From Bdellovibrio sp. (lineage in GTDB: Bacteria; Bdellovibrionota; Bdellovibrionia; Bdellovibrionales; Bdellovibrionaceae): DNA of 11,559 nt. Shown here in pieces: positions 1 to 11,559 of the stretch. The stretch spans positions 1-11,559 of the forward strand of contig JAHRXB010000092.1 of the NCBI GenBank assembly GCA_019104905.1, in the 5' to 3' direction. The translations under genes were made by a program, and so were the position numbers. Numbering within the stretch: position 1 is the stretch's first letter; the number at the start of each line of letters is the position of its first letter. Below the pieces are notes generated by a model that saw nothing but the letters and a program-made list of their open reading frames with translations, did no database searches and was not told where the DNA came from.

Positions 1-336
1 GAAAACTTGGTTTATCCAAAGTCCTTCGCGGGTTTGGACCTGATGTATATCCCCATTTACGGGAAAATGACTTGGTTTAATGAAAAGATCGTTCCTTTTG
101 ATCTTTATTTCTCGGCGGGTTACGGAACGACCAACACCCAGGCGGGGGAAAATGCTGGGACGATCCATTTAGCGACAGGTCAGATTTTTGCGCTTTCCAA
201 GGCTTATGCAGTTCGCTGGGACTTTAGCTGGAACTTCTTTAATGCGACCGGCATTGATGGTTCGACAAACTCTTTCAACAATCTCTTCCTGACCGTGGGT
301 ATGAGTTGGTTCTTTCCGGAGGCTAGTTACCGATGA
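1..336 (+). CDS. Outer-membrane beta-barrel protein, C-terminal part (GltA/GltB type), 5' end outside window
   Basis: The reading frame is open from the first base, so this is the last 111 residues of a gene that begins upstream. A TTG at position 7 is in frame but probably internal. The residues show alternating polar and hydrophobic/aromatic strands (for example DLYFSAGYGTT, YAVRWDFSWNFF, NLFLTVGMSWFF) separated by short turns rich in Gly, Asn and Thr. That is the pattern of the closing strands of an outer-membrane barrel, and the aromatic stretch close to the C-terminus fits a final strand. In the Myxococcus gliding machine, barrel proteins GltA and GltB form an outer-membrane complex with GltC, whose homologue follows here with a 4-base ATGA overlap. 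Barrel identity is seen from the pattern; the Glt assignment rests on context, and GltA cannot be told from GltB with only this fragment. Confidence 0.75.
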   Translation, partial: ENLVYPKSFAGLDLMYIPIYGKMTWFNEKIVPFDLYFSAGYGTTNTQAGENAGTIHLATGQIFALSKAYAVRWDFSWNFFNATGIDGSTNSFNNLFLTVGMSWFFPEASYR

Positions 337-1916
337 AGAAATTATTACTACTCCTGATTGTCGCAAGTTTTGTTATGCCGACGACAAGTTCGGCGCAACG
401 TAAGGCAAATTCAAAACAACTCACTCCTCGTCGAGCAGCGCCGGTGATTCCGTCGAATTCACGTGAGGCTACTTTGCGCAATCAGTTGAGCAATGCTCTG
501 CGGATGGCGCAAGGGGGGCAGTATGAGTCCGCGGCGAACTCATTATTTTCTCTCAGTCGACGTTCTGAATTGGCCGATGAACGTCCGCAAATAAAATACA
601 TTCTGGGAACTATGTTGATCGAACTGAAGATGTACCAGACGGCGGCCTTCCAGTTTGTCGACGTGATTCGCACAAAACATCCAAAATACTCTAAGATGGC
701 GATTGAAAAGCTTTCGATTGTGGCCGACAGCTTGGGTGACGACACGATCTTAAACTATGCGATTTCACGGGTGGATCTTAATGATTTCCCAGCCAACTTG
801 AAGGACATGATCCACTTCCGTTTGGGTGAGATCAAACTGCGCAATCGTGAGTTTGGGCAGGCGGCCGAGCTTTTTGGTCGTGTGAGTTATGGCAGCAGTT
901 ATTATTTCCAAGCTCTTTACAGCAAGGGTCTGGCCGAACTTGAAGCCAATCAGCCGGCATTGGCCATCGGCACTTTCAACAAGATGTTAGACGCTCGCCG
1001 AAAGGCTCCCGTCACTGATACGAACAGAGTGGCGGCGCAAATCGGCTTGGCGCGGGCTCTTTATCAAAAGCAAGATTGGGAGGCTTCTATTGAGGCCTAT
1101 TCGCAGGTGCCACGAGATACTATCATGTGGCATGACGCGATTTTTGAACAAAGTTGGGCCATGCTTCGTGCGGCTCGCTTCCGTTCGGCTTTAAGTAATT
1201 TCCAAACTCTCCATTCGGCATATTATGAAGACTTTTATATGCCGGAGAGTTTACTTCTTCGTTCCATCGTTTACCTCTACATCTGTAAGTACGACGAGAT
1301 GGAAAAGGTTCTAAGTCTTTTTGAAAAGACTTACGGGCCGGTTCGTACCAGAATCGGAGACTTCTTAAAGACGACCACAGAAGCCAGCGCTTTCTATGCG
1401 GAAGTTGAGAAGGCTCACTTTATGAAGACGACAGAGAAAAGCGCGAACTTACGTTTACCTTACATCGTTCTTCGTCACGTTTTGGATCAAGGGGACGTGA
1501 AAAGATCCATGCATTATATCGAAAAATTGAATCAGGAAAGAAGCCGGGTTGAGGCAAACTCTTCTTTCCGTGCTTCACCACTGGGACAATATGCCCTGAA
1601 GATCCTTAGCAATCGCAGTCGCAATGCGAAGTTTGCAGTGGGTGACATGGCGAAGGCTCATCTCCTCAATATGAGGGTGGAACTTCGTGATCTTTATGAA
1701 CAAGCCGGATTTATTCGTTATGAGATGATCACGGGTCGTAAAGAGAGCATCAAAAAGAAAATCGCCGGAAAGGATATTGGAACGGAACAGATCGACGAAA
1801 AGGTGGATCGTCAGTTCTATATTCAAAATGGTTACGAGTACTATCCATTTAAGGGCGAGTACTGGTTGGATGAAGTTGGAAATTATCACTACCTTGGCAA
1901 ACAAAGCTGCGAGTAA
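333..1916 (+). CDS. gltC: Secreted TPR protein, GltC-like component of the gliding/envelope machine
   Basis: The 527-residue product starts with a signal peptide: MKK, a run of leucines, and a likely signal peptidase I site after TSSA near residue 21. A basic, Ser/Pro-rich stretch follows. From about residue 45 to 460 it is almost entirely paired amphipathic helices with TPR-like spacing (AANSLFSLSRR, YQTAAFQFVDV, FGQAAELFGRV, WEASIEAYSQV), suggesting a periplasmic protein-interaction superhelix. The C-terminal end is not TPR and carries an aromatic/acidic motif, PFKGEYWLDE, at residues 505-514. The start overlaps the barrel gene's stop (ATGA), and GGAGG lies 10 bases upstream. In Myxococcus, GltC is a TPR protein working at the outer membrane with barrel proteins GltA/B. 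Position next to a barrel gene and before the GltD-like gene supports the name; the TPR fold alone would not. Confidence 0.72.
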   Translation: MKKLLLLLIVASFVMPTTSSAQRKANSKQLTPRRAAPVIPSNSREATLRNQLSNALRMAQGGQYESAANSLFSLSRRSELADERPQIKYILGTMLIELKMYQTAAFQFVDVIRTKHPKYSKMAIEKLSIVADSLGDDTILNYAISRVDLNDFPANLKDMIHFRLGEIKLRNREFGQAAELFGRVSYGSSYYFQALYSKGLAELEANQPALAIGTFNKMLDARRKAPVTDTNRVAAQIGLARALYQKQDWEASIEAYSQVPRDTIMWHDAIFEQSWAMLRAARFRSALSNFQTLHSAYYEDFYMPESLLLRSIVYLYICKYDEMEKVLSLFEKTYGPVRTRIGDFLKTTTEASAFYAEVEKAHFMKTTEKSANLRLPYIVLRHVLDQGDVKRSMHYIEKLNQERSRVEANSSFRASPLGQYALKILSNRSRNAKFAVGDMAKAHLLNMRVELRDLYEQAGFIRYEMITGRKESIKKKIAGKDIGTEQIDEKVDRQFYIQNGYEYYPFKGEYWLDEVGNYHYLGKQSCE

Positions 1917-1919
1917 AAT

Positions 1920-4900
1920 ATGAAAGTCAACAGGCATCAACTTCTTGTTTCAAGTCTTCTGATTGCACTCTGCGCAGGGCCGGCGGCCTTCGCGCAAGGT
2001 ACTACCGTAAAAACCACAAAGGTCGTCAAGAAAAAGACTGTGGGCGAGTTGTTGTCGCAGGCCGGAGAAAGCAGCCGCGGGGGGCGAGTTCAAATGTCCA
2101 AGACGGACACGTCTTTGCCGTCTGCAAATCTTGGTTTTAAAGATGGCGTGAAGTCTTACAATCTTGAGTCTGTGAAGCCACCTCGTTCCTCTGAGATCAT
2201 GCAAAGAGAATCCGGCGGCGGGGAAAAGGCTGAATACGAAAGAGTCCTCGATCAGCAGATCGGAGAACTCTATAAGTTGACTCAAAAGTTTAAAAGCAGC
2301 CCGAATCGCGGCGAGCTTTGGCTACGTTTGGCAGAGCTCTATGTTGAAAAGGCGGGTTTGATCGACTCTCGCAAGCAAGATGACTATGATGCGAAACTGC
2401 GCGCCTTCCAGGCTGGAAAAACCAAAAATAAGCCAAAGCTGGATGTTGCGGAGGCGCGGGAGTATAACAAAAAAGCCGTGCAGCTTTATGAGTGGTTCCA
2501 ACGGGACTTCCCTCGTGACGAGAAGATGAGTCAGGCGCTTTTCTTCTTAGGATACAATTATTTTGAATTGGGCGAGGTTAAAAAAGGGGCTCATTATTAC
2601 GAGCAATTGACCCAGGGATATCCGAACTCCTCCTTTGTTGGGGAAGCGCACTTTGCCTTGGCTGAATACTACTTTGAAAATGAAAAATGGGCGCAAGCCT
2701 ATAAAGAGTATTCATTTTTGATTAAAGAAAAAAAACATCGTCTGCACACCTTTGCCCTGTATAAAGGCGCTTGGTGTCTTTTCCGCATCGGAAAGGTTCA
2801 GCAGGCCATGAACTATCTTGAGTTCATTATTAAGACGGGGAAAGCCGAGATCGGTGAACAGTTGGCAGGAAAACGTTCTGTCAACCGCAACCGTCTTGAA
2901 AACGAAGCCCTGCGGGACATCGTCGTGTTCTATGCAGAGGGCGGAGATCCGTCTAAAGCGGCTTCCTACTTTAAGAATCTGGTGGGTGGCGACTACAATC
3001 CCTACCTAGAACGGTTGGCATATCAATATTCTGATCGCGGTAATAAGGATGCTTCTCGTGAGGTCTTTAAGCTTCTGATTTCTCAGAACCCCACGTCTCC
3101 GAAGGCCTTCGAGTATCAGTATCAGATCGTGCAAAACTATTATTATGCTAAAAACACGTCGCGCTTCAAAACGGAGCTTTATAGTTGGGTCAAAGATTAT
3201 GACTCAAATGGTGCTTGGTACGCGGCCAACAAAGGCAATAAAGAGCTGATTGAAAGTTCCTATAAACTGCGAGAGACCACGTTGCGCAACTACGTTTTGC
3301 AACAGCATCAGACCGCACAAAACTCCAGAGCGCCGTATTCTCAAGCTCAGGCCAATGAAGGTTATCAATTATATCTTCGCGAGTTTGCCGACTCAGCCAG
3401 CGCTGGAGATATGCACTTTTATTACGGTGAGCTTTTATATGACATGAACAAGTACGATGAAGCGTCCATGCAGTACAAATGGGTTGTCGACAATGCTCCG
3501 CAGAGTAAGTTCTATGGAAAATCGGCACAAAATTTAATTTTGTCCGTGGAACGCAGTATTCCTTCGGATCAGGAGATGCAAAAACGTGTCGGGACGTCGT
3601 TAGATCCCGTGCCGCTTGAGCCTAAAGTGGATCGCTTTATCAAAGCGGGGCAATGGTATGTGGAAAAATTCCCTGGTTCTGAAAAGTCTGTCGAGATCAA
3701 ATTCCGTATCGGTCGACTTTATTATCAAAGCAATCACTTTGATGAAGCGACGAAGTACTTTAAAGAGATCGTTCAGCAGAGTCCCAATACGAAGTATGCG
3801 GAGTATTCGGCCAATCTTCTTTTGGATATCTACAACCTGAAGAAAGACTACGTGGGTTTAGAAAAGACAGGAGCAGAGCTTCTCTTGGTGCCTTCTATTG
3901 CGTCCTCAAAGGCGGGGGCCGATATCCGTGGAGTTCTTGAAAAGGCGTCATTTAAGCGCGGTCAGGATCTGGAACTTGAAAAGAAATACGCGGACAGTGC
4001 GCAAGTTTATGCGGCTTTTGCCAAGCAGAATCCCAAATCAAGTCTGGCGGTCACGGCGTTGTTTAATGCCGGCGTCAACTTTGAAAGAGCCGGCATGAAT
4101 AGTCCTGCGATTGAATCCTACCAAGGAGTGATCGCATCGAAGGACCCGAGCGCCGATAAGTTAAAACCCAAAGCCTATCGTCTTTTGGCAAAACAGTATC
4201 AAGATTCCGCTCGTTTCGAAGAGGCGGCAAAGCTTTATCGACAAGCGGCTCAGGAAAGTCCGACAGATCCATTAGCGCCCAATTTGATTTACAATGCGGC
4301 GGCTCTCTATGAAGCGCTGGGAAAATCAGATGACGCGATTCGGGCTTATACGGAATTTACAAAATTAAACAAAAAACAGTCAGACAACGTCGAGGCGGTC
4401 TACAGCATGGCACAGATTCACCGCAAGGCGGGTCAGAATGCGGCGGCCATTGCTCGCTATACGGAATACGTGGAAGCCGGCGGGCGTGATCAAGAAAAAG
4501 TCGTTGAAAGTGCTTACTGGGTTAGTGAACTTTCTCGTCGTCAAAAGGCCATGACCAAAGCCAACGAGTGGAGTCAAAAGACTTTGGCGCTGCAAAAGCG
4601 TTTTGCTCCAAATAAGAAAGGTGTTGGGGCTTCTTACGCCGCGAAGATTAAGTTGGATGAAGCTGAAGGAACTTTTAAAGAGCTGAAGGGTGTGACCTTC
4701 CCGGCGGACCCGAATAAACAAAAAGCGGCTGCCGATAAAAAAGTAGCTCTTTTGACAAAACTCACGGGCGAGTTGGCGGAAGTTATCAAATACGACAGCG
4801 CGGAAGAGATCGTGAGTTCACTCAGTATTTTGGCGGAAGCCAATCAGAACATGGCGCAAGCGATCTTAAATGCTCCTCTTCCTCCGGGATTAAACGCAGA

Positions 4901-5126
4901 AGAGACCAAACAATACAAAGCTGGCGTTGAAAAGTTCGCGGAACCTTTCAATACGAAAGTCCGTGAAAGCTTTAAGTTGGCGGTCGATCGGGGTCTGGAG
5001 TTGGAAGTCTATAATGAAGGATTTAGAACTGCTTACGACTATATGAGCAAAATTGAGCCCAAGAGCTACTACAATGGCGGAGAAATTGGCTCTGACATCC
5101 GCTTAGTAAACTGGATAGGTCAATAA
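1920..5126 (+). CDS. gltD: Very large periplasmic TPR protein, GltD/AgmU-like
   Basis: The 1068-residue product has an N-terminal signal peptide with a likely cleavage after AAFA (residue 25). A flexible, charged linker runs to about residue 120, followed by a long array of TPR-like helix pairs from about 130 to 890. Typical units are ELWLRLAELYVEK, ALFFLGYNYFELGEVKKG and LAPNLIYNAAALYEALGKSDDA. The last 150 residues form a separate helical domain with LNAPLPPGLNAEE and a conserved-looking end, SKIEPKSYYNGGEIG. Size and architecture match GltD (AgmU), the roughly 1200-residue periplasmic TPR scaffold of the Myxococcus gliding machinery, and the following genes match the gltE-F-G order. The gene begins 3 bases after the previous stop with only a weak ribosome site, suggesting translational coupling. 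It probably bridges inner- and outer-membrane parts. A generic YbgF/BamD-like TPR role is less likely given size and neighbours. Confidence 0.78.
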   Translation: MKVNRHQLLVSSLLIALCAGPAAFAQGTTVKTTKVVKKKTVGELLSQAGESSRGGRVQMSKTDTSLPSANLGFKDGVKSYNLESVKPPRSSEIMQRESGGGEKAEYERVLDQQIGELYKLTQKFKSSPNRGELWLRLAELYVEKAGLIDSRKQDDYDAKLRAFQAGKTKNKPKLDVAEAREYNKKAVQLYEWFQRDFPRDEKMSQALFFLGYNYFELGEVKKGAHYYEQLTQGYPNSSFVGEAHFALAEYYFENEKWAQAYKEYSFLIKEKKHRLHTFALYKGAWCLFRIGKVQQAMNYLEFIIKTGKAEIGEQLAGKRSVNRNRLENEALRDIVVFYAEGGDPSKAASYFKNLVGGDYNPYLERLAYQYSDRGNKDASREVFKLLISQNPTSPKAFEYQYQIVQNYYYAKNTSRFKTELYSWVKDYDSNGAWYAANKGNKELIESSYKLRETTLRNYVLQQHQTAQNSRAPYSQAQANEGYQLYLREFADSASAGDMHFYYGELLYDMNKYDEASMQYKWVVDNAPQSKFYGKSAQNLILSVERSIPSDQEMQKRVGTSLDPVPLEPKVDRFIKAGQWYVEKFPGSEKSVEIKFRIGRLYYQSNHFDEATKYFKEIVQQSPNTKYAEYSANLLLDIYNLKKDYVGLEKTGAELLLVPSIASSKAGADIRGVLEKASFKRGQDLELEKKYADSAQVYAAFAKQNPKSSLAVTALFNAGVNFERAGMNSPAIESYQGVIASKDPSADKLKPKAYRLLAKQYQDSARFEEAAKLYRQAAQESPTDPLAPNLIYNAAALYEALGKSDDAIRAYTEFTKLNKKQSDNVEAVYSMAQIHRKAGQNAAAIARYTEYVEAGGRDQEKVVESAYWVSELSRRQKAMTKANEWSQKTLALQKRFAPNKKGVGASYAAKIKLDEAEGTFKELKGVTFPADPNKQKAAADKKVALLTKLTGELAEVIKYDSAEEIVSSLSILAEANQNMAQAILNAPLPPGLNAEETKQYKAGVEKFAEPFNTKVRESFKLAVDRGLELEVYNEGFRTAYDYMSKIEPKSYYNGGEIGSDIRLVNWIGQ

Positions 5127-5977
5127 TGAAAAAGATCTTAGTTATACTCTCTCTTTTTGTTATGGCGGGGTGTTCTTCCAGTTCGGTGAAGGAAACCAAG
5201 ACGGAATCGTCTGAAGTGAAGACCGTAACGGAAGCGCCGGTTGCGAAGAAGGAAGAACCGAAGGCTCCCGTGGTCGAAGAACCGGCCCGTCCGGTAATTC
5301 CTGCGACCCCATCGCAGTATGCGGAGCTGAACGAGGCTATCAAGTCTCAAAGCGACGAAAAGATCTATCAGGCGGCCACTCATATTTTGACTCAATCGCC
5401 GAACGATACGAAGGCATTGAATGCCTTGGCGATGTATCATTATAAGCGAGGTCGATTTGATCTTTGCCGTTACCTTTTAAATAAAGCGATTGCCGCCAGC
5501 CCCAAAATGGCCGAGCTGTATTCAAACTTGGGTATCGTCCAGTTGGCGCAAGGGGAAAGACGCGAGGCTATTAAATCGTTCCGCAAGGCTTTGGACATCA
5601 ACAACGATGAAGCGGTGGCCGCTTCCAATTTAGGCGCCATCTATGTTCAAGAAAAAGATTATGGAAAAGCTCAGATTGTCCTTGAGACCGCTTACAAGCG
5701 AGGCGTGCGTGATTCGCGAGTTTTGAATAACTTTGCGATTGCCCTGACCGCCCATCGCAAATTCGATCGGGCCGAAGATCTTTACAAGACGATCTTGAAA
5801 GACAATGCGAACAATAAGGATGCTTTATATAATTATGCAACACTGTTGGTAGACCATATGGGTAAATACCAAGAGGGTTTGGACCTAATTAACAGACTAA
5901 AGTTTGTAGGTGGGCCTGCAGATACTCGCAATAAAATTATTGCTTTGGAAAATAAGGCGAAAGCTGGTTTAAAATAG
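5126..5977 (+). CDS. gltE: TPR lipoprotein, GltE/AglT-like
   Basis: The 283-residue product begins with a lipoprotein signal, MKKILVILSLFVMAGC, giving a lipidated Cys16. Serines follow, so there is no Asp at +2 and an outer-membrane destination is expected. Residues 17-93 are a Lys/Glu/Pro-rich tether that would let the body reach into the periplasm. Residues 94-263 divide exactly into five consecutive 34-residue TPR units starting at D94, M128, E162, D196 and N230; the second (SNLGIVQLAQGERREAIKSF) is nearly canonical. A 20-residue tail follows. GltE (AglT) in Myxococcus is a TPR lipoprotein that partners the large GltD protein, and the same adjacency is seen here with a one-base TAATG overlap and GGATAGG as a possible ribosome site. 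A PilF-like pilotin is an alternative for an isolated TPR lipoprotein, but the context argues against it. Confidence 0.78.
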   Translation: MKKILVILSLFVMAGCSSSSVKETKTESSEVKTVTEAPVAKKEEPKAPVVEEPARPVIPATPSQYAELNEAIKSQSDEKIYQAATHILTQSPNDTKALNALAMYHYKRGRFDLCRYLLNKAIAASPKMAELYSNLGIVQLAQGERREAIKSFRKALDINNDEAVAASNLGAIYVQEKDYGKAQIVLETAYKRGVRDSRVLNNFAIALTAHRKFDRAEDLYKTILKDNANNKDALYNYATLLVDHMGKYQEGLDLINRLKFVGGPADTRNKIIALENKAKAGLK

Positions 5978-5998
5978 AGTGAAGGATTGGTGAAAGCT

Positions 5999-6304
5999 AT
6001 GTTGCGATATGTAATCCAAATTTCAATTTTTGTGGCAATGATCTGTGCGTTTGACCAGAGCTTTGCGCAATCAGATCGCACATCGTCAACGACCACCACT
6101 GTGACCACAACCAAGAAGGAACGAAAAGCGACGTTGAATTTCGAAGATGAGTTGGTCGAAGGAGCAACCCAAAAACCGGAATTGTTCTATCTTTTTCAAA
6201 AGAAGAACTTCAACTACAAAAGATTGATTAAATTAAGAGAAAACTTTTTACCCGAGATGAGAAGAACAACAGAGGACATACAGCGGGTTCGGGGTGGTAA
6301 TTGA
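5999..6304 (+). CDS. gltF: Small secreted protein, GltF-like
   Basis: From the ATG at 5999 the product is 101 residues. In-frame GTG (5990) and TTG (5987) starts would add three or four. AAGGA at 5982-5986 lies too close to the GTG and rather far from the ATG, so the start is uncertain. The N-terminus is a signal peptide (hydrophobic segment after LRYV, likely cleavage after QSFA), so the protein should be periplasmic. The mature part has a Thr/Ser-rich stretch, then an acidic segment (NFEDELVEG), then a basic helical end with KKNFNYKRLIKLRENF and PEMRR. I recognise no catalytic motif. It occupies the gltF slot between gltE-like and gltG-like genes, and GltF in Myxococcus is a small periplasmic gliding component; the name is mainly positional. 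It overlaps the next gene by four bases. Confidence 0.62.
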   Translation: MLRYVIQISIFVAMICAFDQSFAQSDRTSSTTTTVTTTKKERKATLNFEDELVEGATQKPELFYLFQKKNFNYKRLIKLRENFLPEMRRTTEDIQRVRGGN

Positions 6305-8388
6305 GAGCGCCTTTAATATTTAGAATTTTTAAAAACAATCAGCTCGTCGGTGTTAAGCAGTTCGATCAAGATCAGATCGTGGTGGGACATAATGCCGAAG
6401 TGCATTTGGATCTCGATTCCGATCAGGTTTCGCCGATTCACTGTCTTATTGAGCTGCGCGATAACGGTTACTATATATGCGACTTGGGTTCCTCATCAGG
6501 AACCTTTAAGAATGGGCAGGCTGTTCTTGATGAATTGATTTCATCAGGGGATGAGGTTGAAGTAGGGCCTTTTAAAATTGCCTTCTTCGTCGGAGTTCCG
6601 AAGCCTAAGGTCGCACCCGGAGTCACGGTTGCCAGTCAGGCCGCGGCCCCCGTCGCGCCGGTTGAAGCTAAAAAGGCGACACCCGCACCGATGCCTCCAG
6701 CGGCCGTGGTGAAGAGTGAAGAGATTAAGGTGACTCCCGCAATTCCGGTGGAGGTTCCCAAGGTTGAAGACAAGCCGGTGATTACAACGGCTCCAGTGCG
6801 ACCTGAGATCCGCAAAGATCGTAATTTCTATAAGAAACCTAAAAAGACAAAAACATTTGCACCTCCAAGTGATGTGCAAGATTTAAGAACTTATTTGAAG
6901 CCTGGCAAAGGAACCACAGTCGAGGTTTTGGTTGCGTGGAAAGAAAGAATTCTGACCACTTACCACTTCAAAGGTAATAAAACCATTCGTGTGAACACGG
7001 GTGGGGATTTACAAATTGCTCTTCCTGACGGTTTGGTTCCACGCGGATATCCCATTTTAGAAATGGCCGGTGGCCTTAAGGTGAACACCACCGCTGAAAT
7101 GAATGTGGAGATGATTTCGGCGGCGGGCCTTCAGCCTGTTGAAGATTTAGCTCGCAATGGAAAAGCCCAACGTGGCGGCCAAGGCTACCACGTTCGCGTA
7201 GATCAAAACGAAATGCTTTGTGTGACGTTGCCGGGTGGCAGTATCACTTTGTATATTCGCTTCTCGCCTCAAGCACCTTTGGTGCCGATGCTTCCGATGA
7301 TGCTCTCGGGTTCGGAAATGACCGGCGTGGTGATGTCTTTGGTGATGGTGTCGTTGTTGGCACTCTATATCTCCGCGACAATTCCGAAGGACTGGCAGGA
7401 AAACAAACAAGAGGAAGTGCAGCGTATCGCGCAAGTGGTGTTTAATAAACCTCCACCAGCGGCGTCTCCAGTTCCAACGCCTCCTCCTCCGACTCCGCCG
7501 CCCGTGGCGCAACCGACGCCGACACCGACGCCTCCTCAAAAGGTGGTGGTTGCGGATCAAAACAAGGATGCGCAGAAAAAGGGACAGCAGGGGCAAAAGG
7601 CGGCAGCCAATCAGGTGGCCGCGCGAGCTAGTGAAGTGGCTCCGAAGCCTAATGCCAAAGATCGTACTAAGAAATTCACTTCAACTCGACAGGGTGGAGC
7701 GATCAAGACGGGTCAGACGGAAGGAGCGAATGCTCAGTCGTCGAATAAAGATCTTTCGAAAGTGGGACTCTTTAGCGCCTTTGGTGGCGGCGGAAGTCGC
7801 GCCAATATCGACAAAGCCTATTCGGGAGCCGGTGAGGTTCTGGGAATGGCGGATAAGGCGACAGGAACTTCCGGATTCAAGGAAGATCGTGCTGGCGATG
7901 ATTTAGGTTCTAAGTTTAAGGATGCTGGTGCCGGAGGAAAAGGAACTGCGACCCAAGGGATTGCAGGGATTGGAACCAAAGGACGGGGATCGGGACAAGC
8001 TGCTTACGGTGCCTCTGACGGCTTCGGCAACAAAACCACAGTCGCTATTGAGGGCGGTGGTTTTGAAGAGTCCTTTGATGGAACGATTGACAAGGAAGCA
8101 ATTCGTCGTGTGATTCGTGCCAAACTTCATGAGGTGAAGAGCTGCTATGAGCGAGCTCTGAACACCATGGAGAAGGGACGTAAACTTGAAGGTAAAATTG
8201 TTTTAGGCTGGGAGATTATAGAAAAAGGGCAAGCGCGTAACGTGAAAGTGAAGAGTTCTTCTTTGGGCAACACCCAGGTTGAAAACTGCATTCGCGACCG
8301 TTTGGCAAGTTGGACTTTCCCAGAACCTCCACCAGGTCTTGTGGCCGAAGTGCAGGCGTATCCCTTTGTGTTGAACCAGGCTAATTAG
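6301..8388 (+). CDS. gltG: FHA-domain inner-membrane protein with AgmX/PglI-type TonB-like tail, GltG-like
   Basis: This 695-residue protein has a clear domain order. Residues 1-100 are an FHA domain: Gly29, Ser44-x-x-His47, LGSSSGT at 62-68 and Asn71-Gly72, but His30 replaces the usual Arg. A Pro/Ala/Lys-rich linker runs to about 195, then a second beta-rich cytoplasmic segment at 205-330 (VEVLVAWKERILTTYHF). A single transmembrane helix lies at about 341-360, a proline-rich rod at 384-412, and a Gly-rich linker contains KVGLFSAFGGGG. Residues 590-693 form the AgmX/PglI C-terminal domain, with AIRRVIRAKL, Cys615-Tyr616-Glu, Cys663 and WTFPEP. This is the layout of GltG (PglI), which couples the proton-driven motor to periplasmic partners. 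The start is TTG: no in-frame Met occurs before about residue 130, and FHA strands begin at once. GGGGTGG precedes it and TTGA overlaps the previous stop. Confidence 0.85.
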   Translation: MRAPLIFRIFKNNQLVGVKQFDQDQIVVGHNAEVHLDLDSDQVSPIHCLIELRDNGYYICDLGSSSGTFKNGQAVLDELISSGDEVEVGPFKIAFFVGVPKPKVAPGVTVASQAAAPVAPVEAKKATPAPMPPAAVVKSEEIKVTPAIPVEVPKVEDKPVITTAPVRPEIRKDRNFYKKPKKTKTFAPPSDVQDLRTYLKPGKGTTVEVLVAWKERILTTYHFKGNKTIRVNTGGDLQIALPDGLVPRGYPILEMAGGLKVNTTAEMNVEMISAAGLQPVEDLARNGKAQRGGQGYHVRVDQNEMLCVTLPGGSITLYIRFSPQAPLVPMLPMMLSGSEMTGVVMSLVMVSLLALYISATIPKDWQENKQEEVQRIAQVVFNKPPPAASPVPTPPPPTPPPVAQPTPTPTPPQKVVVADQNKDAQKKGQQGQKAAANQVAARASEVAPKPNAKDRTKKFTSTRQGGAIKTGQTEGANAQSSNKDLSKVGLFSAFGGGGSRANIDKAYSGAGEVLGMADKATGTSGFKEDRAGDDLGSKFKDAGAGGKGTATQGIAGIGTKGRGSGQAAYGASDGFGNKTTVAIEGGGFEESFDGTIDKEAIRRVIRAKLHEVKSCYERALNTMEKGRKLEGKIVLGWEIIEKGQARNVKVKSSSLGNTQVENCIRDRLASWTFPEPPPGLVAEVQAYPFVLNQAN

Positions 8389-8399
8389 TTTTTTTTATA

Positions 8400-8439
8400 A
8401 ACTCCGGCAAACCCGGAGGAGAAATTTTAAGGAGGAGTT
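8400..8439 (+). promoter_or_regulatory. Leader of the motor genes: GC-rich hairpin plus duplicated Shine-Dalgarno motif
   Basis: The 54-base gap before the channel gene contains the 7-mer GGAGGAG twice, at 8415-8421 and 8431-8437. The downstream copy sits 5 bases before the GTG start and is the working ribosome site. The upstream copy is partly inside a six-pair hairpin, CTCCGG (8402-8407) with CCGGAG (8413-8418), loop CAAAC. The same left arm, as AACTCC (8400-8405), is also complementary to GGAGTT (8434-8439), which covers the working site. The two pairings exclude each other, so the leader could tune motor translation. The pairings are seen in the sequence; regulation is inferred. Confidence 0.45.
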
Positions 8440-8442
8440 CCC

Positions 8443-9108
8443 GTGAACCCAACAGTTACAGCAGACAACATGAATTTCATCCAGCGCGCTTTCGCTGAAG
8501 GTGGTTTCGTCATGTACGTGATCGCAGTTATTGCCATCTTGGCTTTATTTGTGATCGTCGAAAGAATGATGAAAATGAAAAACCTTGCAGTGGATAAAAA
8601 AGAATTCACAGATCAAATCTTCAGAATGGTGGTTTCCGGCGATCTCCGTCAGGCCATTAGTTACTGTGATGCTCGTCCCGCTCCTTTGACAAATACGGTG
8701 AAAGCGGGACTTGTTCAGGCGATGAATAAGCGCCCTGACGAAGAAGTCCAAGTAGCCATGGATGCCGCAGTGATGAGAGAGATGCCTAAAGTAGAGGGAT
8801 GGGTGTCCTTCCTTGCGGTTTTCGGTAACGTGGCCGTTTTGGCGGGTCTTCTTGGAACGATCATCGGTATGATCGGTTCATTCCGTGCGGTGGCGGCAGC
8901 CGACCCTGCAACGAAAGCTCTTGAACTTTCCAAAGGTATTTCGCACGCCTTGAATTGTACGGCGTTCGGTCTTTTGGTGGCGATCGTTTCTATCGTTGCT
9001 TACGGTTTGTTCCAGCATCGCATTCAGAAAACAGAGAATGAAGTTGTTGAGACAAGCATGAGTCTTTTGAATCTGGTTGTTGCGAACAGAGAAAAGATTA
9101 AAGACTAA
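8443..9108 (+). CDS. aglR: TolQ/ExbB/MotA-family proton-channel protein, AglR-like
   Basis: The 221-residue protein has three hydrophobic segments at about 22-40, 121-147 and 169-190, with a cytoplasmic domain between the first two. This is the MotA/TolQ/ExbB topology. The family signature is clear in the second: AGLLGTIIGMIGSF with Thr139, and Thr173 lies in the third helix (LNCTAFGLLVA); equivalent threonines face the ion path in TolQ and ExbB. The GTG start is chosen because AAGGAGGAG lies 5 bases upstream; the first ATG, nine codons later, has no such site. Two ExbD-family genes follow, giving a complete motor set. TolQR or ExbBD proper are alternatives, but no TolA/TolB/Pal or TonB gene is adjacent, while gltC-G homologues are, so AglR of the gliding motor is the better name. 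Confidence 0.82.
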   Translation: MNPTVTADNMNFIQRAFAEGGFVMYVIAVIAILALFVIVERMMKMKNLAVDKKEFTDQIFRMVVSGDLRQAISYCDARPAPLTNTVKAGLVQAMNKRPDEEVQVAMDAAVMREMPKVEGWVSFLAVFGNVAVLAGLLGTIIGMIGSFRAVAAADPATKALELSKGISHALNCTAFGLLVAIVSIVAYGLFQHRIQKTENEVVETSMSLLNLVVANREKIKD

Positions 9109-9130
9109 TAGGCAAGATTAGAGGTTTTCA

Positions 9131-9607
9131 ATGGCTCACATAGATAGTGGCGAATCCAGCGGCAGAAAGAAGAATATCGAGTTGAATCTCGTGCCTTTCA
9201 TCGACTTGATGAGTGTTCTCATCACGTTCTTGCTGATCACTGCCGTTTGGACCCAAGTGTCTATGATTCAAATTGGTAGTTCCCTGTACGGGAAGAAATC
9301 GGACACGCAACCCGCTCCCACGCCTCCTCCCAATGCGGATGTCGTATTGAAAGTGGATGTGAAAGAGATGGGTTATGTCTTAACTGTTGGGAGACAAGTG
9401 ATCAGTCTTCCCATGGTGAATGAACAGTTTGATGAAGCCGGTCTTGTCGCACAGTTGCAACGTGTGAAGCAGCTTTACCCTGAAAAGGTGGATGCGGTGG
9501 TCAGCGTTGCGGATGCGATTCCTTATGAACAGCTCATTAAAGCAATGGATAACTGTCTGACGGCAGGATTTTCAGCAATTTCCGTTGCGACAGGAGGGCC
9601 GAACTGA
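9131..9607 (+). CDS. aglQ: ExbD/TolR-family motor protein, AglQ-like
   Basis: The 158-residue protein has a short cytoplasmic N-terminus, one membrane helix at about 20-40 (LNLVPFIDLMSVLITFLLI) and a periplasmic domain. Asp25 in the helix is the conserved proton-carrying residue of ExbD/TolR proteins. After the helix comes a Pro-rich linker (QPAPTPPPN), then the usual beta-rich ExbD fold ending with IPYEQLIKAMDNCLTAGFSA, whose tyrosine/helix region matches the family's C-terminal motif. GAGG lies 6 bases before the ATG, and the gene starts 22 bases after the channel gene. In Myxococcus, AglQ and AglS are the two ExbD-like partners of AglR. Which of the two this one corresponds to is judged only from gene order and its shorter, more typical length. 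Confidence 0.78.
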   Translation: MAHIDSGESSGRKKNIELNLVPFIDLMSVLITFLLITAVWTQVSMIQIGSSLYGKKSDTQPAPTPPPNADVVLKVDVKEMGYVLTVGRQVISLPMVNEQFDEAGLVAQLQRVKQLYPEKVDAVVSVADAIPYEQLIKAMDNCLTAGFSAISVATGGPN

Positions 9608-10197
9608 TGGCCATCTTCAGACCCGGTGAAAGACACCGTTATCACAATATCTTGAGTAAACGTAAAGGGAAGCGGGACGTGACAGCGTTGCTGTCTTTGA
9701 CAGCGATGGTGGATATGTTCACGGTGCTGGTGATCTTCCTTTTGCAGAACTACAACGCGACGGGGGAAATTCTTTATATCCCGAAAGAAGTGGTTCTTCC
9801 CAAGGCGACCAGCGTGCGTGAGCTGAAGCCGGCTCATGTAGTCACGATTTCAAATAAAGAGATTCTTTTGGATAAGGATCCCGTGGCGACGTTTGATGAA
9901 GTTAAAGCGGCGGAAGACTGGAATATTCAGAATCTGAAGAGTCAGTTGCAAGAAGCTTTAGCGAAATCAAAAGCGGAGCAAGAAAGCAAATTGCAGAATA
10001 AAATCCGTGATGTGGTTGAGTCCACTCGGGGTGAGACGGAAGAGGATCCTAATGCGTGGAGCAAGGTGACGATTCAGGCCGATAAAGGCGTTGATTTTCT
10101 GACCATTAAAAAAGTCCTTTTCACGATCACGGAAGCTGGCGCCGGAGAGATTAATTTCGCGGTGACTAAACTTCCTCAGGATTCGACATCCAATTAA
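9607..10197 (+). CDS. aglS: Second ExbD/TolR-family motor protein with charged insertion, AglS-like
   Basis: The 196-residue protein has a strongly basic cytoplasmic N-terminus (RPGERHRYHN, SKRKGKR), then one membrane helix at about 26-47 (LLSLTAMVDMFTVLVIFLL) holding Asp36 at the conserved proton-site position. The periplasmic domain ends in a typical ExbD segment, VTIQADKGVDFLTIKKVL. Between them, residues 106-150 form a charged, probably coiled-coil insertion that the first ExbD-like protein lacks, which explains the extra 38 residues. The start overlaps the previous stop by one base (TGATG) and has a strong AGGAGGG site 8 bases upstream, so the two are probably made in a fixed ratio. With the AglR-like channel it would build a motor with two kinds of ExbD subunit. 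The AglS name follows gene order. Confidence 0.76.
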   Translation: MAIFRPGERHRYHNILSKRKGKRDVTALLSLTAMVDMFTVLVIFLLQNYNATGEILYIPKEVVLPKATSVRELKPAHVVTISNKEILLDKDPVATFDEVKAAEDWNIQNLKSQLQEALAKSKAEQESKLQNKIRDVVESTRGETEEDPNAWSKVTIQADKGVDFLTIKKVLFTITEAGAGEINFAVTKLPQDSTSN

Positions 10198-10211
10198 AGA
10201 TTCTATATGAT
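10183..10211 (+). promoter_or_regulatory. Candidate sigma70-type promoter for the lptC-lptB genes
   Basis: TCGACA (10183-10188) matches TTGACA at five of six bases, and TATGAT (10206-10211) matches TATAAT at five of six, separated by exactly 17 bases. The -35 lies within the last codons of the second ExbD-like gene. Transcription would begin near 10218, about 64 bases before the lptC start. This would let LPS-export genes be expressed independently of the motility genes. No transcript evidence is available from sequence alone. Confidence 0.45.
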
Positions 10212-10243
10212 GCGCAGGACGTTAATTTTAACCGGACTGCGCA
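10211..10243 (+). repeat. Inverted repeat in the gap before lptC
   Basis: TGCGCAG (10211-10217) and CTGCGCA (10237-10243) are perfect seven-base arms around a 19-base centre. The centre itself contains the smaller palindrome GTTAATTTTAAC (10221-10232). No U-rich run follows, so it does not look like an intrinsic terminator. It lies across the predicted -10 edge and start of the candidate promoter, so a regulator-binding site is possible. It could also be an mRNA-end structure of the motor operon. The rest of the 84-base gap shows nothing recognisable. Confidence 0.4.
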
Positions 10244-10281
10244 GCTGACTCCGTCCCTGTAAAGTGCGAACTTAAACAAAT

Positions 10282-11283
10282 ATGGCTAAATTTAAGAACT
10301 TCATTTTTGTAGCACTTCTCATCCTTTTGTTTGTTGAGGTTCTTATTGTATTTCCTTCGCGCTTGGAGCATGAGGACGATGCGGAAGTGCGTGCGCGTAT
10401 TGAAGCTCAAAATGAACGTCTTCGCCGAGGCGAAAAACCGGAAGAACCTAAAAGCTTGGCCGAACAAAAGATGCAAGGTGTTCATCTTGTAGAAAGTCAG
10501 CAAGGCAGTCGCGACTGGGAGCTTTTTTCGGTTTCTGCCGAAGGCAGTCAGGCCGCGGGGACTTGGAAACTGAAGCAGGTTAAGGTTTATTTCTATAACA
10601 AAGAAAAAGTTGAATTCACCGTCACGGGGGATTCGGGCACGATTGATTCCAAATCCAAAGATCTGAGTGTCATAGGAAACGTCATGACTCGTTCTGAGAA
10701 TGGATATGTTTTTCAGACGCCCTCGATATACTATTCTTCAAAGACAAGACTGATTGAAAGCCCTGAAGAAGTTCTTATGAAAGGCCCTCGCGATAGTTCC
10801 GGCGAAGGGTTGTTGCTCAAAGGGCGTCGTATGAAGGTTTTAGTTGATCAGTCTAAGATGCTGATTCAAGAAAAGATAACGGCAGAGAAGCCTGAAAAAG
10901 CCGGTAAAAAATTTGAGATTGTTGCCGACGGAGCAGAATTTAGCGGCAAAAGCCGAGAGGCTCGCTTTTTGGGATCCGTTCGGATGAGTTACGATAACAT
11001 GAAACTGGAAGGTCCCGAGGCCTCGTTCCTCTATAATACAGGTGCGGACATCTTAAGTTCGATAGCCATCAAGGGTGGGGTCAAGGTCAGCGATGCCGAT
11101 AAGTTCGCCACCTCGGACAGTGTGAGTCTGGACCTTTTGGCGAATAAGTACATCTTCAAAGGGCGTCCCAAAGTAATCCAAAATAATGATGAACTGACGG
11201 GCGAGGAAATCATCTTTCTTGATGGCGGAAAAAAGGTTAAGGTAGAAAGAGTGCGAGCCAAGGTGGAGAATAAAGATCAATGA
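10282..11283 (+). CDS. lptC: LptC-like LPS-export protein with an LptA/OstA-like C-terminal half
   Basis: The 333-residue product has an N-terminal membrane anchor at about 5-24 (FIFVALLILLFVEVLIVF), then a charged segment, then beta-rich LptC-type sequence from about 65 to 205: GTWKLKQVKVYFYN, VTGDSGTIDSKSKDLSVIGNV and GYVFQTPSIYY. A second beta-jellyroll-like stretch from about 210 to 328 has the LptA/OstA style, with FEIVADGAEF, ARFLGSVRMSYDNMKLEG and a closing GRPKVIQNNDELTGEEIIF. E. coli LptC is about 190 residues and LptA about 185, so this protein is long enough to hold both. LptC passes LPS from the LptB2FG transporter to the periplasmic LptA bridge. The ATG is the first in-frame start after a stop codon and has no clear Shine-Dalgarno site. 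The neighbouring lptB strongly supports the role. Confidence 0.8.
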   Translation: MAKFKNFIFVALLILLFVEVLIVFPSRLEHEDDAEVRARIEAQNERLRRGEKPEEPKSLAEQKMQGVHLVESQQGSRDWELFSVSAEGSQAAGTWKLKQVKVYFYNKEKVEFTVTGDSGTIDSKSKDLSVIGNVMTRSENGYVFQTPSIYYSSKTRLIESPEEVLMKGPRDSSGEGLLLKGRRMKVLVDQSKMLIQEKITAEKPEKAGKKFEIVADGAEFSGKSREARFLGSVRMSYDNMKLEGPEASFLYNTGADILSSIAIKGGVKVSDADKFATSDSVSLDLLANKYIFKGRPKVIQNNDELTGEEIIFLDGGKKVKVERVRAKVENKDQ

Positions 11284-11559
11284 GTATGCTCACCATCAAA
11301 GACATTTCAAAATCTTTTAAAAAACGCAAGGTCGTTGATGGCGTTTCATTCTCAGTTGAGTCGGGTCAAGTGGTCGGTCTGCTGGGGCCTAACGGGGCGG
11401 GGAAAACCACTTCTTTTTATATGGTTGTGGGATTGGTACAGTCCGACTCCGGCAGCATTAATATCGACGAAGTGAATATCTCCCAAGAGCCTATGTACAA
11501 AAGAGCCCGCGTGGGTTTGAGTTACCTGGCCCAAGAGCCAAGCATCTTTAGAAAGCTGA
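11280..11559 (+). CDS. lptB: LPS export ABC transporter ATPase LptB, N-terminal part (runs off window)
   Basis: Ninety-three codons are visible. The N-terminus (MLTIKDISKSFKKRKVVDGVSFSV in two pieces, residues 3-26) is typical of LptB. A perfect Walker A, GPNGAGKTT, lies at 36-44, and the Q-loop glutamine is Gln85 in YLAQEPSIFRKL; that sequence is characteristic of LptB rather than other ABC ATPases. Signature motif, Walker B and switch histidine lie beyond the window. LptB is the cytoplasmic ATPase that powers LPS extraction by LptFG and delivery to LptC. The ATG overlaps the lptC stop (ATGA). A second ATG two codons later (11286) is possible, but the first is nearer the GGTGGAG upstream. 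An LptB assignment is firm given the preceding LptC-like gene. Confidence 0.9.
   Translation, partial: MSMLTIKDISKSFKKRKVVDGVSFSVESGQVVGLLGPNGAGKTTSFYMVVGLVQSDSGSINIDEVNISQEPMYKRARVGLSYLAQEPSIFRKL

Follow-up and report, generated by a model that had tools for sequence, protein, structure and literature searches.

An Agl-Glt-type gene cluster of Bdellovibrio and its position in a lipopolysaccharide operon

Gene content of the cluster

The window analysed here is a stretch of 11,559 nucleotides of Bdellovibrio sp. (GenBank assembly GCA_019104905.1, contig JAHRXB010000092.1, forward strand) that probably encodes most of an Agl-Glt-type trans-envelope machine, a system known from Myxococcus xanthus. 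It makes up an entire contig (C98) of a draft assembly with 2.93 Mb, 317 contigs and 88% completeness, and its nearest named relative is a Bdellovibrio sp. metagenome-assembled genome with 98% identity in GltC. Nine open reading frames (ORFs) of the + strand fill positions 1-10197, with successive gaps of -4, 3, -1, 9, -4, 54, 22 and -1 bp. As already noted in a preliminary description of this DNA, they form a single collinear run from an outer-membrane barrel end through gltC-D-E-F-G to a motor of one TolQ-type and two TolR-type genes, as judged from the ORF list and from NCBIfam and Pfam matches. The same description had stated that M. xanthus splits these parts, and indeed three loci are found there, G1 (gltD-J), G2 (gltK-B-A-C) and M1 (aglR-Q-S) (PMC3169522).

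Positions 1-336 encode the C-terminal end of an outer-membrane beta-barrel protein at the place of gltB, a gene that is open at its 5' side and starts upstream of the contig. Its product reaches 87.3 bits against TIGR04565 OMP_myx_plus (NCBIfam curated cut-off 60) and is 89% identical to the end of a 266-residue ortholog in another Bdellovibrio genome, G006. The window lacks gltA and the larger part of gltB, which relatives have directly upstream. There follows a GltC-like protein of 527 residues with tetratricopeptide repeats (TPR) and a signal peptide recognised by eye (333-1916), for which NF033756 gliding_GltC is the best family at 197 bits (cut-off 450). The next product, of 1068 residues (1920-5126), has a signal peptide, again seen by eye, and many TPR; it matches TPR-type families and is named GltD-like by position and size, the M. 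xanthus GltD having 1191 residues (PMC3169522). A TPR lipoprotein of 283 residues with an MAGC lipobox, also found by eye (5126-5977), is GltE-like, with 39.7 bits for NF033758 gliding_GltE (cut-off 225). A small periplasmic protein of 105 residues (5987-6304) has NF033764 CglF as its sole family at 44.2 bits (cut-off 90), CglF being another name of GltF (PMC4488436). The GltG-like protein of 695 residues (6301-8388) combines a cytoplasmic FHA domain (49.3 bits), one transmembrane segment identified by eye, a Pro-rich stretch and an AgmX/PglI-type, TonB-like C-terminal domain; it matches NF033760 gliding_GltG best (242 bits, cut-off 650) and NF033768 at 99 bits (cut-off 40).

The motor genes close the cluster, which ends at 10197. 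The first encodes an AglR-like proton-channel subunit of the TolQ/ExbB/MotA family (8443-9108, 221 residues, PF01618 at 93.9 bits) and the two others encode TolR/ExbD subunits, AglQ-like (9131-9607, 158 residues, PF02472 at 65 bits) and AglS-like (9607-10197, 196 residues, PF02472 at 50 bits), which are told apart as Q and S by order and size alone. All three lie above the Pfam cut-offs.

Family assignment of the Glt-like products

The preliminary description had expected the products to match Glt or Nfs proteins better than unrelated TPR or FHA families. This stood for GltC and GltG, for which the gliding family is the best match, and for GltF/CglF, for which it is the only one, all three below the curated cut-offs; judging from sequence, homologues of GltC and GltF are present in the window. 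It did not hold for the two other TPR proteins, which general TPR models match at least as well. At the GltE position a general TPR family reaches 62 bits compared with 40 for gliding_GltE, while no GltD family was among the 17 NCBIfam families listed for the GltD position, TPR/YbgF-type models being the best there.

In canonical FHA domains, an Arg contacts the phosphothreonine. In the FHA domain of GltG (6301-6600) the corresponding site is variable and is occupied by His in the window, so this domain may not bind phosphothreonine in the usual way.

Compared with M. xanthus, homologues of the barrel, GltC, GltF, GltG, AglR, AglQ and AglS are found, together with TPR proteins at the places of GltD and GltE. 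AglQ (162 residues in M. xanthus, 158 in the window) and AglS (194 and 196) are of nearly the same size, and GltC (673 and 527) and GltE (471 and 283) are shorter in the window. Unlike in M. xanthus, the genes form one cluster instead of three, adjoin genes of lipopolysaccharide (LPS) export and do not include gltH, gltI, gltJ or gltK. A search for GltJ in three genomes gave only partial matches of at most 40 bits (cut-off 450), in the C-terminal domain and in another stretch.

A motor apart from TolQR and ExbBD

The most ordinary explanation of a TolQ-like gene beside TolR-like genes is a TolQR/ExbBD energiser with TPR partners that serves import or export via an outer-membrane protein and is unrelated to Glt. 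In its favour, the best NCBIfam family is TolQ for AglR and TolR for both AglQ and AglS, and the solved structures matched by AglR are TolQ and ExbB. Tol-Pal and TonB-ExbBD indeed belong to the same proton-channel superfamily, but they have one TolR/ExbD per motor where the window has two genes. The phylogeny of the TolQ-like subunit was built from 47 rows drawn from 103 ORFs (85 distinct). It separated 18 rows of one-TolR pairs, E. coli TolQ and ExbB among them, from 29 triad rows with a support of 100/100 and a branch length of 1.45, and the 13 window-type motors formed one clade within it, also at 100/100. One triad row, own_C266, is labelled so although its locus, which is cut there, shows a single TolR gene. 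The rows left out were mostly window-type orthologs or the same gene repeated in two loci, plus three low-scoring ORFs with no TolR neighbour (L174, L175, L187), and the TolQ-like model did not recover L181, L188 and L192 among the listed matches nor L205 and L206 among the fetched loci. In addition, the GltC, GltF and GltG matches speak against an ordinary energiser, as does the fact that no TolB, Pal or TonB-receptor family was found among the window products with NCBIfam and Pfam. This explanation, disfavoured by the motor tree, is thus very improbable, and the motor does not group with TolQR or ExbBD, in agreement with the preliminary description.

The residues expected of a proton channel are conserved in window-type motors, once rows below 240 bits for AglR or 120 bits for AglQ and AglS are set apart. 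AglR T139 and T173 are each present in all 52 aligned rows, the transmembrane Asp25 of AglQ in 53 of 55 (the other two being gaps) and Asp36 of AglS in 56 of 56. Of the four low-scoring AglQ rows set apart, one paralogue lacks the Asp.

In the paralogous motor of G006 at 1.40 Mb, the AglQ-like subunit (L123:17344-17901) has Ala at the position of the expected channel Asp. From its sequence, this motor may have only one Asp-bearing type of TolR subunit.

Fusion of GltD and GltE

In the set compared, all 11 uncut loci that lack an ORF for gltE (10 distinct sequences) encode GltD and GltE as one protein of 1234-1311 residues, two further loci of this kind being truncated, and a GltE-like end was seen on GltD in none of the 47 loci with a separate gltE. 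The fused gltD ORFs are those of L059, L060, L062 (identical to L156), L084, L085, L104-L106, L162 and L163, in the order Bdellovibrionales and in family f12 outside it. Weaker GltE-like ends of 12-61 bits were found on 11 further GltD proteins outside the order, with the caveat that TPR resemble each other and that the GltE-end profile includes the fused parts of L084 and L085, whose own scores are there by construction. The absence of gltE does not always imply a fusion, since the GltD proteins of a paralogous Bdellovibrio cluster (1237 and 1246 residues in L121 and L123) have neither a gltE neighbour nor a GltE-like stretch. The recurrence of the fusion suggests that GltD and GltE touch each other.

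Distribution, gene order and ancestry

A GltC match was found in 59 of 59 genomes, the window's own included. In a sample of 191 genomes of the phylum, 96 have a match at E <= 1e-25, among them all 53 members of the order, one of which has a genome of 1.2 Mb. Of 38 named relative loci that were fetched, 29 span gltA to the last motor gene and nine do not. The order gltA-B-C-D-E-F-G-R-Q-S is kept in 25 of these 29, the exceptions being one locus with gltG split in two ORFs and three with gltE fused to gltD. Such conservation is beyond chance. A plasmid origin of the cluster was considered and set aside, the gltD gene having no near match in a plasmid collection.

The preliminary description took the single cluster as a sign of the ancestral arrangement of the whole machine. 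In keeping with this, Luciano et al. report that non-deltaproteobacteria have the core genes together in a single region and deduce a core cluster in the ancestor (PMC3169522), and gltB and gltC adjoin in all 20 glt loci sampled outside the order, with gltD-(E)-F-G next wherever the contig continues. Seventeen of these loci reach gltG and 16 extend beyond it, but none of the 16 has a motor next to gltG; in two the motor stands on the opposite strand, 0.5-1.6 kb away. Moreover, a second full cluster of Bdellovibrio is arranged R-Q-S-D-F-G-B-C, with the motor first and B-C last (L123; L121 shows it from S onward), and has a counterpart with gltE in another family of the order (L120). Because a paralogous cluster of the same genus differs in order and motors outside the order do not stand beside gltG, a single cluster is not by itself ancestral. 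Together with the surroundings of the cluster described below, which look derived, this leaves the proposal unlikely, though less so than the other rival explanations weighed here.

A partial cluster, gltB-gltC-gltF-gltA, was also seen in L116-L119, for example at 3.49 Mb of G006. Its GltC is 33-34% identical to that of the window in G006 and G020 and 29% in G014, and no recognised motor, gltD or gltG was found within the fetched 18-20 kb.

Position within a Kdo/LPS operon

In the window, the last motor gene is followed by an 84-bp gap (10198-10281), by a gene for an LptC-LptA fusion-like protein of 333 residues (10282-11283; LptC 50.5 and LptD_N/LptA 30.1 bits, both above cut-off), which is a flanking LPS-export gene and no part of the machine, and by the start of lptB for the LPS-export ATPase (11280-11558), which leaves the contig. 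The full ortholog of the latter in L115 reaches 367 bits for LPS_export_lptB (cut-off 240), and rpoN follows lptB. On the other side, kdsC, a gene of 3-deoxy-D-manno-octulosonate (Kdo) synthesis, stands directly upstream of gltA in 23 of 33 named-relative loci with enough sequence. Five of the other ten were viewed upstream of gltA: a kdsD-like gene takes this place in two of them and another ORF in two more, and the fifth shows no ORF of at least 120 residues. Downstream, among 30 loci with the last motor gene, an LptC gene begins within -86 to 115 bp in 23 and at 0.8-1.4 kb in four, and one locus is cut. Among the 53 genomes of the order, 42 have gltC and lptB on the same strand of one contig at a distance of 9-18 kb, and seven have the two genes on separate contigs; the place of lptB is not listed for four, namely the window's genome (lptB at 11280), G203 (lptB 0.9 kb past the motor), G039 and G194. 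In Bdellovibrionales, the glt-agl cluster is thus mostly found between kdsC and lptC-lptB-rpoN, inside a Kdo/LPS operon. No paper on this nesting was found in searches of a library of open-access papers.

Outside the order, all 20 fetched lptB loci have an LptC gene directly before lptB and rpoN in the locus, with no glt gene, and one of them carries an unrelated one-TolR motor. kdsC abuts lptC in two of these loci (L135, L136), L136 being arranged pyrG-kdsA-352-residue gene-kdsC-lptC-lptB-rpoN. Since glt genes are missing from these loci and kdsC and lptC are adjacent in two, the most economical interpretation is an insertion of the glt-agl block between these two genes within Bdellovibrionales, so that its position looks derived and not ancestral. 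This, too, counts against an ancestral single cluster.

The junction between the motor and lptC was scanned over 9900-10600. One promoter-like site was found (10183-10211), compared with 0.6 expected from shuffled sequences, and the only terminator-like site lies on the - strand, none being seen on the + strand of this interval.

The LptC-LptA-type protein of the window was modelled with a predicted local distance difference test score (pLDDT) of 84, and the model matches structures of LptC, LptA and LptD. It is the only LptA/LptD_N family match in three genomes. From model and sequence, the LptC gene of the operon looks like an LptC-LptA fusion with a built-in LPS bridge; a divergent separate LptA may nevertheless exist, as the same three-genome search showed no LptD either. 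The identity of 57% obtained between lptC and its G006 ortholog is artefactual, one locus being cut. LptC-type proteins of about 310-430 residues were also seen before lptB in the 20 loci outside the order (L124-L143).

Just upstream of lptC, and pointing away from it, sister families of the order have a gene whose product combines GYF_2 and PilZ domains. It was tested with Pfam in two loci (L153:6583-7290; L155:14575-15462) and recognised by alignment in L059-L061, L150-L152, L154 and L163; the proteins have about 230-300 residues, and 413 in L150. The gene is 1.1-2.0 kb from lptB, both on one contig, in 18 of 23 genomes; in G048, G107 and G167 the two genes are on separate contigs, and lptB is unplaced in G194 and G039. 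No match was found in G203, and the best match in Bdellovibrio is elsewhere (G006, 1.91 Mb). The protein is possibly an effector of cyclic di-GMP, judging from its domains. It was rejected as a regulator belonging to the machine, being absent from the window and staying with lptC when lptC is away from glt. No paper combining a GYF domain, PilZ and gliding was found. A PilZ gene, Bd1482, is described beside another gliding operon by Hobley 2012 (PMC3271064) and a GYF-like domain in the predation gene Bd0075 in a 2025 study (PMC12034629).

Relation to the published Bd0828-0838 locus

Genome G006 (3,782,950 bp), which from its size we take to be that of B. bacteriovorus HD100, has an ortholog of the cluster at about 777-789 kb with the same gene order. 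The nine machine proteins of the window are 73-97% identical to their orthologs there (AglR 97%, AglQ 96%, GltC 86%, GltD 86%). G006 has nine MotA/ExbB-family matches, which correspond to four triads (398, 787, 1402 and 2282 kb), two pairs and three genes without a TolR-like neighbour. Lambert et al. described four agl operons, Bd0412-0420, Bd0828-0838, Bd1473-1483 and Bd2368-2377 (PMC2797640). The map order of the four triads fits that of these operons, which supports Bd0828-0838 as the ortholog of the window cluster, and we infer that it is.

The cluster is therefore not new, as Bd0828-0838 was published in 2010-2011 as an agl/tonB-like operon (Lambert 2010, PMC2797640; Luciano 2011, PMC3169522). 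Luciano et al. found it to be the closest to aglRQS and without gltH, I, J and K, which they report as absent from Bdellovibrio (PMC3169522). The window differs in coming from the draft genome of another Bdellovibrio species, and the consulted passages of these papers say nothing of a nesting between kdsC and lptC-lptB.

Published data bear on function. A transposon mutant in Bd0838 (aglS::tn) fails to attach to, kill or round prey, so that aglS is needed for attachment, but it is viable and grows axenically (PMC6561027). Bd0828-0838 was up-regulated in axenic growth and not at 30 min of predation (PMC2797640), as expected for a growth-phase LPS operon. Among the other agl clusters, Bd0411-0421 is expressed in the early bdelloplast (PMC12546842), and together with Bd2368-2377 and bd1480, to which we return below, it looks stage-specific.

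A probable predator surface machine made along with LPS export

Taken together, the window probably holds most of the Agl-Glt-type trans-envelope machine of a Bdellovibrio species, proton-driven and acting at the predator surface in prey attachment and gliding, made along with LPS export and orthologous to Bd0828-0838; we hold this reading with good confidence. Gene content, order, orthology, motor class, conserved channel residues, nesting in relatives and the GltD-GltE fusions were observed directly, and proton flow, force transfer, prey attachment and co-expression are carried over from other species or from published mutants.

AglR and the AglQ/AglS pair (8443-10197) would form a proton channel of the TolQR/MotAB class in the inner membrane. 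GltG (6301-8388), with its cytosolic FHA domain, transmembrane segment, Pro-rich periplasmic arm and TonB-like end, would take the force of the motor across the inner membrane; in M. xanthus, AglR contacts GltG, and the machine depends on Asp28 of AglQ and on the proton-motive force (PMC3858216). The TPR proteins GltD and GltE (1920-5977) would span the periplasm together with GltF, and the GltA/GltB barrels with GltC would be the outer-membrane end that moves or locks a surface cargo, through which the predator would attach to prey and move on surfaces. As the ten genes sit inside the kdsC / glt-agl / lptC(A)-lptB-rpoN operon, the machine is probably produced as the growing cell lays down new outer membrane.

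Several points weigh against this reading. The gliding-family scores are under the NCBIfam curated cut-offs, and the identities of GltD and GltE lean on position more than on sequence. The motor tree holds no M. xanthus row (no Myxococcus name was among the best 120 rows listed by each of two protein searches, and no myxobacterium matched among 14 control genomes), so the kinship to AglRQS itself rests on Luciano et al. (PMC3169522). The equivalence with Bd0828-0838 depends on the genome size of G006 and on relative map position.

The link with LPS export has weak points as well. Two of the 30 relative loci are without lptC within 1.9 kb of the motor, and in G136, G148 and G212, three of the seven genomes with gltC and lptB on separate contigs, lptB is in another neighbourhood without glt genes, kdsC still standing before gltA. 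Co-expression with lpt would have to extend over the 84-bp gap and its possible promoter, and the viability of the aglS transposon mutant makes it probable that lptC-lptB can be transcribed from elsewhere too. As for gliding, expression linked to it on surfaces was reported for bd1480 and bd3099 (PMC9140294), and Bd2368-2377 is expressed at prey exit in a study whose main text does not contain the terms Bd082 and Bd083 (PMC12546842). Since these gliding data point to other loci, the cluster may not be the gliding motor, and a 2026 review calls the gliding machinery of Bdellovibrio unidentified (PMC13104615). The preliminary description had suggested a role on surfaces or towards prey, which is supported by mutant data of others.

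A rival explanation is a housekeeping envelope machine coupled to LPS, whose motor would distribute, tension or anchor new LPS or an LPS-linked glycan during growth in the manner of Tol-Pal, the attachment defect of aglS being secondary to a changed surface. It finds support in the presence of GltC throughout the order, down to the genome of 1.2 Mb, in the nesting with a Kdo or LPS-export gene across most of the order and in the rise of Bd0828-0838 in axenic growth (PMC2797640). A surface glycan is moved by the sister system Agl-Nfs of M. xanthus, which is closely paralogous to Glt and likewise uses AglRQS (PMC3858216). Nfs differs in borrowing the Agl motor, and the Glt-like label used here does not separate Glt from Nfs affinity. 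On the other hand, aglS::tn grows axenically and was reported for its failure to attach to prey (PMC6561027), glt-agl is whole in G136, G148 and G212 with lptB elsewhere, which means that the linkage is not needed, and neighbourhood alone can mean shared regulation. We regard this explanation as doubtful. In its evolutionary form, the Agl-Glt motor would have entered the Kdo/LPS-export operon in Bdellovibrionales and become a growth-coupled machine with LPS as cargo or anchor, the order-wide copy being housekeeping and the others stage-specific (early bdelloplast, surface, exit); such a scenario is equally doubtful.

With the surface machine made along with LPS export as the preferred reading, the locus is real, conserved and functionally interesting, yet a new copy of a described one. 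Its new points are the apparently derived position in a Kdo/LPS operon, the fusion of GltD to GltE, and findings that speak against a simple ancestral-order argument. The motor, the adhesin and the force path of Bdellovibrio gliding are considered a major open challenge in the 2026 review (PMC13104615). The present locus, with its complete set of motor and transducer, occurs in every sampled genome of the order, and mutant data of others connect it with the first step of predation. It offers two testable leads, in that its place in an LPS operon may point to a coupling with outer-membrane growth and the fusion of GltD and GltE to their direct contact in the periplasm.

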